Shown here one piece after another: positions 29,047 to 60,600 of a DNA stretch of 64,000 nucleotides; position 1 is the first letter of the stretch; each line of letters begins with the position of its first letter. The DNA is taken from assembly GCF_900188355.1 (NCBI RefSeq), contig NZ_FZNX01000001.1:667754-731753 (forward strand), read 5' to 3'. Both the position numbers and the translations under genes were made by a program. Source of the stretch: Lutibacter flavus. Its GTDB lineage: Bacteria > Bacteroidota > Bacteroidia > Flavobacteriales > Flavobacteriaceae. A model generated the notes under the pieces. It saw only the letters and a list, made by a program, of their open reading frames with translations, did no database searches and was not told where the DNA came from.

Positions 29047-30195
29047 ATGAAAAATCATATAAAAATACTGTTGTTCATTTTTATATTGAGTTGTTTTGGG
29101 GTAACTTCTCAGGAAAAGGATGACAAATTATTCTTAACCGGTTATGTTAAAAACCTGCACGAATTTAGTTTTGTAGATAATTTGGACGATTTACAATGGA
29201 CTACCTTTTTACATAACAGGCTCAATTTTAAATACACAGCTTCCGAAGAAATTAAAGTGCGCCTAGAAGTGAGAAATCGAATTTATTACGGAGATAATGT
29301 TAAAAATATTGCAGGATTTTCTAGGTTGATTGATCGTGATAATGGGGTAGTGGATCTTTCCTGGAATTTATTGGATACCAATGTGGTTTTTAATTCAACT
29401 ATAGATAGAGCCTTAGTAAATTATATTAAAGGTGATTGGGATGTTACTTTGGGAAGACAGCGTGTAAATTGGGGAATGAATTTAACTTGGAACCCAAACG
29501 ATATTTTTAATACCTATAATTTTCTAGATTTTGATTATGAAGAACGACCTGGAAGTGATGCAGTACGTATTCAATATTATTTAAGTGATTTTAGTAAAAT
29601 TGAATTGGCTGCAAAAAAGGGGAGAAGCAAGAACGATTATATAATTGCAGCAATGTATAAATTTAATAAATGGGAATACGATATCCAGTTGCTAACAGGT
29701 ATTTATCAAAAAGATTGGGTAATTGGTGTAGGTTGGGCAGGAAACCTTAAAAATGCAGGTTTTAAAGGTGAAGCTACGTACTTTGTACCTTATGAATCTT
29801 ATTACGAAGCTGATAATGTATTAAGTGCTTCTGTATCGGTTGATTACGGTTTTAAGAAAGGATTGTATTTAAACGGCTCTATATTGTATAACAGTAATGC
29901 CAGCGAAAGCGGTAATTTGGGAAGTTTACAATATGCCAATGTTTCTGCTAAAAATTTAATGCCTTATAAATACTCCGGTTTTTTACAATTAGCTAAAGAA
30001 TTTACACCCATTTTCTCAGGTACTTTAAATGTAATTTACGCTACCACCAACCAATCTGTAATTATAATGCCAAGTTTAAATTATTCTGTTGCAACAAATT
30101 GGGAACTAAACTTCACAGGGCAATCTTTCTTTGAGTTTGACCCTTATAAAACACTTGGTAATACGCTGTTTGTTAGATTGCGGTATAGTTTTTAA
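29047..30195 (+). CDS. Outer-membrane porin-like barrel, last gene of the Lol-like operon
   Basis: A 382-residue exported protein (leader ending FGVTSQE) starting 5 bases after the ATPase. The body is amphipathic beta strand throughout, with WDVTLGRQRVNWGMNLTWNPNDIFN, a motif also seen in DUF1302-type and alginate-type barrels. The C-terminal strand ends in Phe (RLRYSF). It may be the outer-membrane exit or acceptor for the upstream transporter. Its stop codon lies against the outermost box of the cassette array. Confidence 0.85.
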   Translation: MKNHIKILLFIFILSCFGVTSQEKDDKLFLTGYVKNLHEFSFVDNLDDLQWTTFLHNRLNFKYTASEEIKVRLEVRNRIYYGDNVKNIAGFSRLIDRDNGVVDLSWNLLDTNVVFNSTIDRALVNYIKGDWDVTLGRQRVNWGMNLTWNPNDIFNTYNFLDFDYEERPGSDAVRIQYYLSDFSKIELAAKKGRSKNDYIIAAMYKFNKWEYDIQLLTGIYQKDWVIGVGWAGNLKNAGFKGEATYFVPYESYYEADNVLSASVSVDYGFKKGLYLNGSILYNSNASESGNLGSLQYANVSAKNLMPYKYSGFLQLAKEFTPIFSGTLNVIYATTNQSVIIMPSLNYSVATNWELNFTGQSFFEFDPYKTLGNTLFVRLRYSF

Positions 30196-30326
30196 ATTAA
30201 CTAGTTTGAATATGGCAAGTTGCGGGTTTTAAAATGCAATTTTCCATTGTTTATTTATTAGTTTAAATTTACTAAAATTTTCCTGTTTACCACAATTTAG
30301 CAATTTGGTATATGCGTTGTTGTAAT
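30195..30326 (-). repeat. attC-like site, D family, distal edge of the array
   Basis: The left box AATTAAC touches the stop codon of the chromosomal barrel gene and the right box is GTTGTAAT at 30319. The interior resembles the D-family sites at 49989 and 57800 (AATATGGCAAGTTGCGGG, then GCAATTTGGTATATGC). Confidence 0.7.
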
Positions 30327-30599
30327 TTAGTAGCTTTAGTTCCTTCCAACTATTCTATTTTGTTTAAATTTCATCCGATTCAATAATCAAATCCGGAATA
30401 ATCATCATATTTATTCAATCAAATAGGGTGTTATAAATAGACTTCCACATCATACTATGACAGATGTTATTGTGTTAGATGTGGGGGTCAACTAAACGTT
30501 ATCATTTCTTCACTACAGTTGTAGTTAAGACTAAAGTGATATATATAATTATTGATAATTCAAAAATGCTTGGTTAGAGCTCAGTCTCGGCTACTAGTA

Positions 30600-30632
30600 G
30601 AACCTCCAACTTAATCAGTGGGAGGTTTTTTA
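30600..30632 (+). terminator. Terminator-like hairpin in the distal array edge
   Basis: AACCTCC and GGGAGGTT form a stem around a 12-base loop, followed by TTTTTT. No plus-strand gene ends close by, so it may remain from a lost gene or end read-through from the Lol-like operon. Confidence 0.6.
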
Positions 30633-30717
30633 TGTATAGCTCTACTAAGAGAAAAGTATCATTATACTGATGGGTTGTTTTTCATGTCTAATTTAAATGA
30701 AATCCTTCCAAATTTCA

Positions 30718-30750
30718 ATCCAAAAAAAAGGCCACCTTTTCAGACAGCCT
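30718..30750 (-). terminator. Terminator of the YiaA-like gene
   Basis: On the minus strand AGGC and GCCT pair across a loop containing TGTCTGAAAAGGTG, and a run of eight T follows. It lies about 30-60 bases beyond the YiaA-like stop codon. Confidence 0.6.
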
Positions 30751-30777
30751 CAATATTGATTTCCATAAAACAATAAA

Positions 30778-31170
30778 TTATTTTGTTGCTGCCAAATTAT
30801 CCCTAGTGTTTTTCTGTACTGCAATTGCACCGAATAAAGATAGTAAAAAAGCGAATGCATAAAAGCCTTTTTCACTTGGAAGTACAGTAGCATTCCAAAG
30901 TCCAACAATTAGTAAAACAATAGATAAAATTGTTCCAAACCAACAAATGCTATAATAAATATCAGTTACTGGATAACCTTCAAGTCTATCTCTTACACTT
31001 TTTTGTAAAGAAATTACTGCGAAAAGACCAAACATTAATACCGTAAAATAATAGCCTTTTTCATTCAATTGCATTTCGGCTCTCCAAAGTCCAATTAAGT
31101 AGCCAATAATTCCCACTGCCATAGCGACCCAAGAAGCCGATACAAATGCTGATGATGTTTTTTGATTCAT
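30778..31170 (-). CDS. YiaA/YiaB family inner-membrane protein
   Basis: A 130-residue protein with four membrane helices arranged as two similar halves: SWVAMAVGIIGYLIGLWRAE with GYYFTVLMFGLFAVISLQK, and the matching FGTILSIVLLIVGLWNA with GFYAFAFLLSLFGAIAVQK. The repeated GLW...EKGxY...LFxxIxxQKxxRD pattern is the YiaAB two-helix domain, present twice. The function of this family is unknown. It follows the DUF2459-like gene on the same strand by 30 bases. Clear array boxes around it were not found, so it may be a decayed cassette or old chromosomal DNA. Confidence 0.88.
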   Translation of the reverse strand: MNQKTSSAFVSASWVAMAVGIIGYLIGLWRAEMQLNEKGYYFTVLMFGLFAVISLQKSVRDRLEGYPVTDIYYSICWFGTILSIVLLIVGLWNATVLPSEKGFYAFAFLLSLFGAIAVQKNTRDNLAATK

Positions 31171-59116: not shown

Positions 59117-59588
59117 TTTTGCGATACGTTATGCTGATAATTGAATTTTAGTATTTTCCGAGATTTGTCATTCTTGTTCTTTATAAAAATCCTTTTTTTT
59201 GTTATTAATTTATCTTTTTTCTTGTTTTAGCGTTTTGCAATTTTTCTCCGTTTCAATGCTCAAATCCGCTCTGATTTTAAATTTCTCCGTTTCATTGAGC
59301 TTTTTGCGTTTCAATTCTCAAAAATCAGTAGAGTAGAAGTGAACTCAAATTTATCATTTTTATTTAATTTGTCATTAAACTAATTAAAAAAAAACAATTT
59401 TCTCATTTTACTAAATTTATCATTGAATGAATTTTTAATCAACTCAATTTTGTCATTTTACTGAATTTATCATTTATAGAAATTTAAATCAAATCAATTC
59501 TCCTCCTGGTTTAAATCTTAAAAATCTATTTTATTAAACTCAATTTTATCTGTTTTGTTTCTGACCGGAAAATTTCATCAGAGCAATT
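59117..59588 (-). ncRNA. Gene-free cassette 4, diverged member
   Basis: Boxes GTTGTAATT (59108) and AATTACAAC (59589) pair perfectly and no gene is supported. It shares CCGTTTCAATGCTCAAATCC and TTCATTGAGCTTTTTGCGTT with cassette 1 and contains direct repeats of TTTACTAAATTTATCATT type near 59396-59480. The proximal hairpin is not conserved; TTCTGACCGGAAAATTTC sits in its place. Confidence 0.4.
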
Positions 59589-59726
59589 AATTACAACCGT
59601 GTTTTTATAAGATTTGTGCGACGTAAAAATCGGAGATTTTTCCGCCGTAGCAATATTTTTATTGAATGTTTGTCGGTTTCTGCTAGTTCAAAAGTAAGCA
59701 TAAATTTTATGAGGTGTTGGCAACAG
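59589..59726 (-). repeat. attC-like site, A family, first site of the array
   Basis: Boxes AATTACAAC and GTTGGCAACAG (59716). The interior is the ACGTAAAAATC variant of the A core. It is the proximal-most site; the stop codon of the 196-residue gene lies in it. Confidence 0.9.
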
Positions 59727-60297
59727 TATTTTCTACTTTCTGAATGTTTTCTGTCAGTTTTTTATTTACAATTATAAATTTGATAATTATAAATCCAAAA
59801 AATAATATAATCGGAATTTTCATATATTCCCAATAAGGATTATTCTCATTCATTGTCTGCCAAGCACTCATAAATAATATTAAAATTCCTAAAATAACTT
59901 GAATTATGTTCGTTCTTATTCTATTGTTTAATTTGTCAATCTGAAATTTCAAATCATTATTCAATTTTTCAATTCCATTGAAATCATTGTAATTATTTAT
60001 TTTTTTAAAGTGTTTCAATAATTTGAGTTCAAAAATCGCATTCGGTAGATTTAAGAATACTATTAAACTCAAAAGGGCAATTAATCCTGTTTTCTGCCAT
60101 TTATAAAAATCAAATTCTAATTGTTCAGATATAATACTTGTCATTAAAATTCCGAAACAAATTATGGTTATTGAAATATTCATAAAGTTCCACATTTTCA
60201 GGAATTGAATTTGTTTGTCAATTCCTTTTATTCTTTCTCCGTAATATGATTTAAGAGAAATTATTATGTTTTTTCGGTTGTCAATGTTTGTTTTCAT
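59707..60297 (-). CDS. Membrane protein of unknown function (first cassette, gene 2)
   Basis: A 196-residue protein with helices at about 35-55 (ISITIICFGILMTSIIS), 70-90 (LIALLSLIVFLNLPNAIF) and two more near the end (IIQVILGILILFMSAW and IPIILFFGFIIIKFIIV), separated by a coiled-coil-like stretch (EKLNNDLKFQIDKLNNRI). The end VANTS and the stop are encoded by the array site. Cassette boxes GTTGGCAAC (59716) and GTTGCCAAC (60574) pair perfectly. Confidence 0.73.
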   Translation of the reverse strand: MKTNIDNRKNIIISLKSYYGERIKGIDKQIQFLKMWNFMNISITIICFGILMTSIISEQLEFDFYKWQKTGLIALLSLIVFLNLPNAIFELKLLKHFKKINNYNDFNGIEKLNNDLKFQIDKLNNRIRTNIIQVILGILILFMSAWQTMNENNPYWEYMKIPIILFFGFIIIKFIIVNKKLTENIQKVENTVANTS

Positions 60298-60333
60298 ATC
60301 GTTGTCAACAATTATTCTCCGTTATTTTTTTTT

Positions 60334-60555
60334 CTAAAAATTTAAAACATTTATTGCATTTAAAAGAAATATTATTAGAAATGTTACTCCGATACTGACG
60401 AAAATTGCTCCTTGCCAATAAAATAATCTCGTTCCCCAATTTTTCCATGTTCCTTTGCTAAAAACTTCATTTTTGAAATAATTCTTAGAAATTTTCCAAT
60501 AAAGAAATATGGTTATTAAAAATAGTAGTATTGCAATAATCCAAATATTTTCCAT
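60334..60555 (-). CDS. Small two-helix membrane protein (first cassette, gene 1)
   Basis: A 73-residue protein with two membrane helices (IWIIAILLFLITIFLYW and AIFVSIGVTFLIIFLLNAI) joined by a basic loop. It begins 19 bases after the array's first box and precedes the 196-residue gene by 36 bases. No family is recognised. Confidence 0.68.
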   Translation of the reverse strand: MENIWIIAILLFLITIFLYWKISKNYFKNEVFSKGTWKNWGTRLFYWQGAIFVSIGVTFLIIFLLNAINVLNF

Positions 60556-60573
60556 TTTTCAATTTTTTTAATT

Positions 60574-60600
60574 GTTGCCAACTAGTTATATGTTAATAAA
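60574..60600 (-). other. Proximal junction of the array (attI-like position)
   Basis: On the minus strand the sequence AACATATAACTA is followed by G|TTGGCAAC, the first cassette edge. This is where an attI site would join the first cassette. The upstream side does not carry the folded core of the attC-like sites, as expected for an attI, but no integrase binding sites can be defined. Confidence 0.45.

Follow-up and report, generated by a model that had tools for sequence, protein, structure and literature searches.

An integron-type array of complementary-ended cassettes in Lutibacter flavus, probably built by a tyrosine recombinase lacking the insertion of classical integron integrases

Organisation of the locus

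The window analysed here is a stretch of 64,000 nucleotides from the genome of the flavobacterium Lutibacter flavus (C8:667,754-731,753; genome of 3.89 Mb in 8 contigs), and its main feature is a dense, integron-like array of gene cassettes on the minus strand, separated by attC sites and followed by an attI-like site and the remnant of a tyrosine recombinase gene. An earlier note, made from the sequence alone, had described a 30-kb array; the dense part was found to cover 21.4 kb (39,207-60,582), the sites at 30.2-36.6 kb being weaker and looking degraded. The boxes of the dense part, 28 left (...AAC) and 27 right (GTT...), were picked visually and their positions then fixed by script. The 27 attC sites listed below were placed by their boxes together with matches to an attC model (model R1), and their lengths of 129-133 bp, with one of 197 bp, agree with the 130-200 bp given before.

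39207-60582, minus strand: dense cassette array, 26-27 cassettes by box-to-box intervals, genes as a rule toward lower coordinates
39201-39331, minus strand: attC site 1
40411-40543, minus strand: attC site 2
42623-42754, minus strand: attC site 3, probably decayed, within a composite cassette
42903-43033, minus strand: attC site 4
43833-43965, minus strand: attC site 5
44860-44990, minus strand: attC site 6
45665-45797, minus strand: attC site 7
46294-46426, minus strand: attC site 8, the sole site whose own two boxes match
46866-46998, minus strand: attC site 9
47419-47548, minus strand: attC site 10
48058-48186, minus strand: attC site 11, divergent body, weak model match (E 0.08), normal box pairing
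48494-48623, minus strand: attC site 12
49049-49181, minus strand: attC site 13
49992-50123, minus strand: attC site 14
50523-50652, minus strand: attC site 15
51071-51200, minus strand: attC site 16
51669-51798, minus strand: attC site 17
52561-52690, minus strand: attC site 18
53318-53450, minus strand: attC site 19
54066-54198, minus strand: attC site 20
54767-54963, minus strand: attC site 21, long form of 197 bp
55887-56017, minus strand: attC site 22
56646-56777, minus strand: attC site 23
57804-57934, minus strand: attC site 24
58311-58443, minus strand: attC site 25
58985-59114, minus strand: attC site 26
59591-59722, minus strand: attC site 27, belonging to the first cassette

The whole genome holds at least 64 attC matches, namely the 27 of the window, 18 in a second array and 19 elsewhere, a lower bound as 150 of 7350 first-look candidates were scored. 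In a relative, seven attC matches of equal top score lie within 2.1 kb (G020:C148:1858-3954); they are near-identical and spaced by about 180-515 bp.

Pairing of the cassette ends

When the right box of each site was compared with the left box of the next site, these two being the ends of one cassette, an identical prefix of at least 7 bases was found in 25 of 27 intervals (mean 8.96), whereas the two boxes within one site agreed to that extent only once in 27 (mean 3.93) and all other offsets from -6 to +7 gave 0-2 matches each. None of 100,000 shuffles of the partners reached the observed pairing sum (242 vs 111 +/- 7.7). The claims that cassette ends are reverse complements within a cassette and that the boxes of a single site usually disagree are therefore borne out, and pairing between neighbouring cassettes, proposed as a check, is far worse than pairing within them. 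The two failures are cassettes 2 and 3 when scored singly; their outer boxes (40537 and 42909) share a 9-base match, which suggests a single cassette whose inner site has decayed.

The consensus of the boxes is looser than the canonical GTTRRRY/RYYYAAC of integrons: GTTR is present in all boxes of the window (27/27 and 28/28), the full GTTRRRY in only 1/27 and 1/28, and the boxes of other genera behave alike (GTTR in 239/244, GTTRRRY in 15/244). The sites thus lack the R boxes of integrons in their defined form and show the other attribute of attC, imperfect palindromes whose R'' and R' are complementary in the circular cassette. In the other genera, where the model instead of the eye located the boxes, in 238 of 246 sites, neighbouring box pairs match over at least 7 bases in 159 of 184 cases, compared with a mean of 11.5 and a maximum of 24 in 2,000 shuffles, and the two boxes of one site match in 21/238.

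These results bear directly on the idea that the sites are hairpin terminators or elements like repetitive extragenic palindromes (REP) lying between genes, whose boxes would pair through maintenance of a hairpin and not through recombination. The position of the sites, 3' of genes as a rule, and their ability to fold suit this idea; the pairing, however, runs across the gene and not within the site, both here and in other genera, cassettes 14, 15, 24 and 26 carry the same boxes without a listed open reading frame (ORF), and single-cassette matches in relatives mostly stop at the boxes (see below). An origin as terminators or REP-like elements is consequently regarded as extremely unlikely.

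Folding of the attC sites

The sites had also been described as foldable. Rebuilt in the form that they would have in the excised circle, they are more stable than shuffled sequence with a median z of -3.4, and z is -2 or lower in 25 of 27; as integrated, the median is -1.6 and 11 of 27 reach that value. In 26 of the 27 window sites greater stability is predicted for the bottom strand, which lies opposite to the strand that usually carries the genes. A consensus fold computed from integrated sites contains a compensatory change in 8 of its 11 pairs.

Cassette contents and recurrence in relatives

As a rule each cassette carries one gene, and the genes read toward the sites as had been noted, with one gene on the opposite strand (48,215-48,499, cassette 11). 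Cassettes 3, 14, 15, 24 and 26 have no listed ORF of at least 80 aa, and the ORFs of cassettes 8 and 21, as listed, extend past a box. Cassette 2 contains two genes, with matches to PLP-dependent enzymes and to carbon-nitrogen hydrolases; among the matches listed in relatives, seven cover one of these two genes at 82-93%. No Pfam family was found at E <= 0.001 for 15 of the 25 dense-array ORFs scanned, and PADLOC gave no match for 16 of the 19 dense-array proteins scanned and weak ones only for the other three (E 0.003-0.007).

Recurrence was examined with positions 40,600-60,583 as query against 38 genomes of the genus, and the figures are those among the matches listed. Matches outside the own genome with at least 80% identity over at least 350 bases numbered 27, of which seven in cassette 2 were excluded, leaving 20. 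Eight cassettes of the window (5, 9, 10, 15, 18, 25, 26 and 27) recur in relatives at 81-97% among these matches, and 31 of the 40 match ends fall within 25 bp of a box where 12.9% would be expected. A comparison of cassette order in relatives had been suggested as a check: single window cassettes are present there and, among the matches listed, no match of at least 350 bases spans two of them. Two cassettes without a listed ORF are found repeatedly within one relative, again among the matches listed: cassette 15 (50529-51077) on five contigs of G009, and cassette 26 (58991-59597) in five places of G025 at 80% identity or more.

The attI-like site

At the high-coordinate edge of the array lies a predicted insertion site.

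60578-60758, minus strand: attI-like site, insertion point G|TT at 60582/60581, preceded by CATATAACTA

Over 181 bp this region matches that of a second integron in the same genome (C8:1,167,622-1,167,802) without a difference, and the identity stops at the cassette. The corresponding insertion point, the partner of the first attC box, was located in 45 of 50 loci, between recombinase and array. The motif ATATAA stands no more than 16 bp before it in 40 of these 45 loci (18/18 in the genus), compared with 1.7% (103/6086) of control GTTR sites. Among genus pairs of loci, the 100 bp before G|TT are alike at 70% or more in 38 of 153, and in none of those 38 do the 100 bp after G|TT reach that level. 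Judged by sequence, an attI with insertion at G|TT is therefore predicted beside the recombinase.

By reading, an inverted repeat is seen beside the attI-like site at 60600-60650, and it is identical in the second copy. A third attI-like copy lies at C7:356,175-356,222 (48 bp at 90%; locus L250, G000:C7:353,500-358,500), where no recombinase was found within the 5 kb read. The cassette there encodes a 206-aa protein that belongs to no family together with a ThsB TIR-like protein (Thoeris; PADLOC 1e-53), and is followed by an attC whose box, by reading, pairs over 10 bases.

The recombinase at the head of the array

Beyond the attI-like site two genes were recognised, the recombinase remnant by a core-binding domain match and by alignment to its relative in Lutibacter sp. 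HS1-25 (locus L021).

60788-62854, minus strand: hybrid histidine kinase with a solute-binding domain, between recombinase and attI-like site
62905-63612, minus strand: tyrosine recombinase remnant, 235 aa

The remnant is 60% identical over 208 residues to the full-length L021 protein (394 aa). It retains the N-terminal extension and the core-binding domain (first 208 residues) as well as the C-terminal tail, the catalytic domain having been lost by an in-frame internal deletion. An intact relative of 388 aa is encoded at C8:1,166,442-1,167,605 in a genome with nine PF00589 matches, and the second array (C8:1,168,426-1,192,150, 18 attC) begins 0.8 kb behind it. The integron reading of the earlier note is thus upheld, and what it had overlooked is the remnant at 62,905-63,612 and the intact recombinase of the second array, neither of which is a classical IntI. 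In sequence the window remnant resembles the L021 branch (60%) more than the intact copy (43%), despite the identical attI regions. A kinase gene occupies the equivalent position in two named Lutibacter loci (L021 and L022).

Proteins of this recombinase group carry about 100 additional residues ahead of the core-binding domain. For this N-terminal domain no confident Pfam or PDB match was obtained, and Foldseek with a model of the domain alone, modelled twice, returned nothing at E <= 0.001; with a model of the whole recombinase (mean pLDDT 75) the Foldseek matches include XerA and IntI4. A conserved in-frame stop in the recombinases of relatives was considered and rejected, since the 15 loci examined contained one internal stop (L195), the other stop being at query position 373, where the remaining alignments end.

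Association of recombinase and array in relatives

The adjacency of this recombinase to attC arrays was assessed in the genus and beyond it. In the genus 38 loci were scored and ten set aside, leaving 28, of which the 17 with at least 2 kb downstream were taken as usable; attC sites lie downstream of the recombinase in all 17, and also in 2 of the 11 loci with less room. All 91 downstream sites are on the strand of the recombinase and one attC was found upstream. As a control, 20 Xer loci, all from the genus Lutibacter, gave one attC match in total, on the opposite strand. For other genera, 40 of 88 recombinase matches were taken, by rank or reported stop and with some near contig ends excluded, giving 34 usable loci; 32 of them have same-strand attC downstream, and the downstream sites share the strand in 249 of 249 cases. 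Over both samples the recombinase gene adjoins an array in 49 of 51 usable loci, the window itself having the remnant only. More broadly, attC was detected at E <= 1e-6 in 202 of 249 family genomes (192 of 235 genera) and the recombinase at E <= 1e-65 in 87 of the 249. In a first sample of 60 relatives, attC at E <= 0.001 occurred in 36 of 37 genus genomes and in 4 of 23 genomes of other families.

The Xer control bears on the suggestion that XerC/XerD or a transposase moves the units, each being a small element with inverted ends that resembles a transposon or an Xer/dif module. Inverted ends do surround each gene, and Xer-type proteins are encoded in the genome. The Xer loci, however, are practically free of attC, and the units stand end to end with a common body of 120-130 bp. 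The dif site of XerC/XerD is a fixed 28 bp sequence and dif modules have fixed sites; here the unit ends differ, and since they vary between units and match only within a unit, they provide no fixed recognition sequence. Movement as elements of this type is for these reasons considered very unlikely.

Comparison with IntI and Xer recombinases

The box I arginine and the box II histidine are 89-90 residues apart in each of the 41 rows for this recombinase, of which 13 were selected within the genus and 28 come from the family list, compared with 131 in IntI (8/8 rows), 92-96 in Xer (13 rows) and 89-90 in five remoter relatives; the alignment has no row for IntI locus L145 or for Xer loci L127 and L128, and IntI locus L144 was not entered. 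The integron integrase profile TIGR02249 aligned to the intact recombinase only at 3-179 and 240-313 of 315, below its cut-off, and an alignment with IntI4 (2a3v) falls into two pieces with 67 residues between them in IntI4 vs 24 here. The additional domain specific to IntI is thus lacking. The top PDB sequence match is archaeal XerA (5hxy, 155 bits), and the NCBIfam family NF040815, described by NCBI as tyrosine recombinase/integron integrase, scored 221.9 bits with protein P0003, against a cut-off of 220, and 212.6 with P0002. In a quickly computed 67-row tree, IntI and this recombinase form separate groups (support 100 and 98, respectively) with their order unsettled, seven of the eight IntI rows having an odd letter make-up.

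None of the 249 family genomes has a classical IntI (TIGR02249) above cut-off, while the phylum sample has one in 84 of its 296 genomes. These counts enter into a further alternative, in which ordinary cassettes were captured by a classical IntI, now lost or located elsewhere, so that the array is a cluster of attC sites lacking integrases (CALIN) and the neighbouring recombinase a bystander. CALINs are abundant in Bacteria according to passages of PMC9668308, the recombinase of the window has no catalytic domain, classical IntI does exist in the phylum, and many family genomes have attC matches and no close recombinase. Nevertheless, IntI is missing above cut-off from the whole family sample, a recombinase other than IntI heads the array in nearly all usable loci with every downstream site on one strand, and the attI-like motif is situated behind that same recombinase. 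Capture by classical IntI is accordingly judged very unlikely.

Proposed mechanism and weight of the evidence

Taken together, the pairing within cassettes, the G|TT boundary, the folding of the circular form, the attI-like edge, the neighbouring tyrosine recombinase and the box-bounded matches support the integron reading, and the region 39,207-60,582 is very probably an integron-type array of complementary-ended cassettes, likely built by a tyrosine recombinase without the insertion of the classical integrase. Cassette recombination itself is inferred from its footprints, the box-bounded matches and the G|TT edge. The circular cassette would fold as single-stranded DNA with its own R'' and R' boxes paired, over 9-10 bases as a rule and with GTTR alone fixed, and the recombinase would insert it at the G|TT of either the attI-like site (ATATAACNA|GTT) or a different attC, so that newcomers would enter at the recombinase end. 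Following loss of the local catalytic domain, the intact copy of the second array would serve the identical attI-like site of the window in trans. Joining by this recombinase, the single-stranded substrate and the service in trans are likewise inferred.

Several points weigh against this interpretation. The boxes of the window were picked by eye, and 25 of its 27 sites served to build model R1. The match ends in the recurrence search are not independent, because 9 of the 20 matches concern cassette 26 and 5 concern cassette 15. For 25 integrated sites the consensus structure is weak, at -2.5 kcal/mol, nearly all of it from covariation. Among the loci, none of the ten set aside in the genus (eight with identity of 43% or less, one picked by length from the PF00589 list and one decayed copy in G019) has an attC match by model R1, the usable locus L180 has no attC, and at L208, the one inverted layout seen, the recombinase is decayed and its four attC lie on the opposite strand, on the upstream side. 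Since attC occurs in so many more family genomes than the recombinase (202 vs 87 of 249), a close relative of this enzyme may be absent from many arrays; part of the gap may stem from the cut-off and from broken contigs. The search for IntI in the family produced no match at all, so that the weight of that null rests on the phylum sample as positive control. Finally, passages of PMC8138268 present the insertion as essential in integron integrases, contrary to an enzyme that works without it.

With these points considered, the system is integron-like by its footprints and falls outside an IntI-based definition of the integron family, since it lacks both the IntI domain and the GTTRRRY box. It likely represents a separate and widespread integron line with the insertion-free recombinase as its likely engine. 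A broader proposal, made with moderate confidence, is that Flavobacteriaceae have a second, family-wide integron lineage with a XerA-like recombinase bearing its own N-terminal domain, an own attI, loose attC boxes and no IntI insertion. The three attI platforms of this genome would then depend on a single intact recombinase, two of the three having lost a functional gene of their own or never possessed one.

Relation to known systems

Like the sedentary chromosomal integrons of the Vibrio type, the array consists of tens of tandem cassettes, usually with one gene and an attC at the 3' end, with R''/R' complementarity within the cassette, insertion at G|TT and an attI-like site near the recombinase. 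It differs from them in having a recombinase without the IntI insertion and with some 100 additional residues at the N-terminus, boxes that keep GTTR only and, in Lutibacter, a kinase gene that may sit between recombinase and attI. The strand also differs, as intI is usually oriented opposite to the cassettes whereas the flavobacterial recombinase is on the same strand. In contrast to CALINs, a recombinase gene heads the flavobacterial arrays in 49 of the 51 usable loci. The best PDB match and the NF040815 score near the cut-off place the enzyme close to XerA-type and NF040815 recombinases, from which it is set apart by its location at cassette arrays and by the N-terminal domain without confident matches.

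Salinibacter ruber is not a member of Flavobacteriaceae. A complete integron was reported for S. ruber M1, in Bacteroidetes, with IntegronFinder 2.0 (PMC9024848, in part), and unlike the present system it was found by the IntI profile. Bacteroidota or Bacteroidetes/Chlorobi appear among the integron phyla in sections of PMC8618304 and PMC2426708. No report of integrons with this recombinase was found among the papers listed by searches of an open library, which lacks most subscription titles and every bioRxiv preprint. In passages of PMC9668308 an IntI-specific domain separates IntI from other recombinases and is called necessary; because IntI is recognised through it, arrays of the present kind would likely be classed as CALIN or missed.

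Surveys that detect complete integrons by that domain would thus likely have passed over a family-wide non-IntI system or counted it among orphan arrays. If the insertion-free recombinase works, a part held essential for joining folded cassettes is not so, and the origin of integron recombination and the manner in which the folded site is held would be reopened. The spread of attC over the sampled genera further points to a large pool of cassette genes in Flavobacteriaceae, many of unknown function.

Distal part of the window

Past the low-coordinate end of the dense array three further regions resemble attC.

30189-30334, minus strand: isolated attC-like site, model match of 58.9 bits
35257-35526, minus strand: fused or double attC-like site, model match at 35257-35396 and the rest by reading
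36497-36643, minus strand: isolated attC-like site, model match of 48.5 bits

The model matches of these sites (30,189-30,334; 35,257-35,396; 36,497-36,643) are weaker than those of the dense part and, by reading, their boxes do not pair with those of neighbours. An Rfam scan of the window gave nothing at gathering scores and a tRNA scan of the window gave no tRNA. Just past the distal end of the dense array, a Fic protein encoded at 37,983-39,065 matches SoFic in PADLOC.

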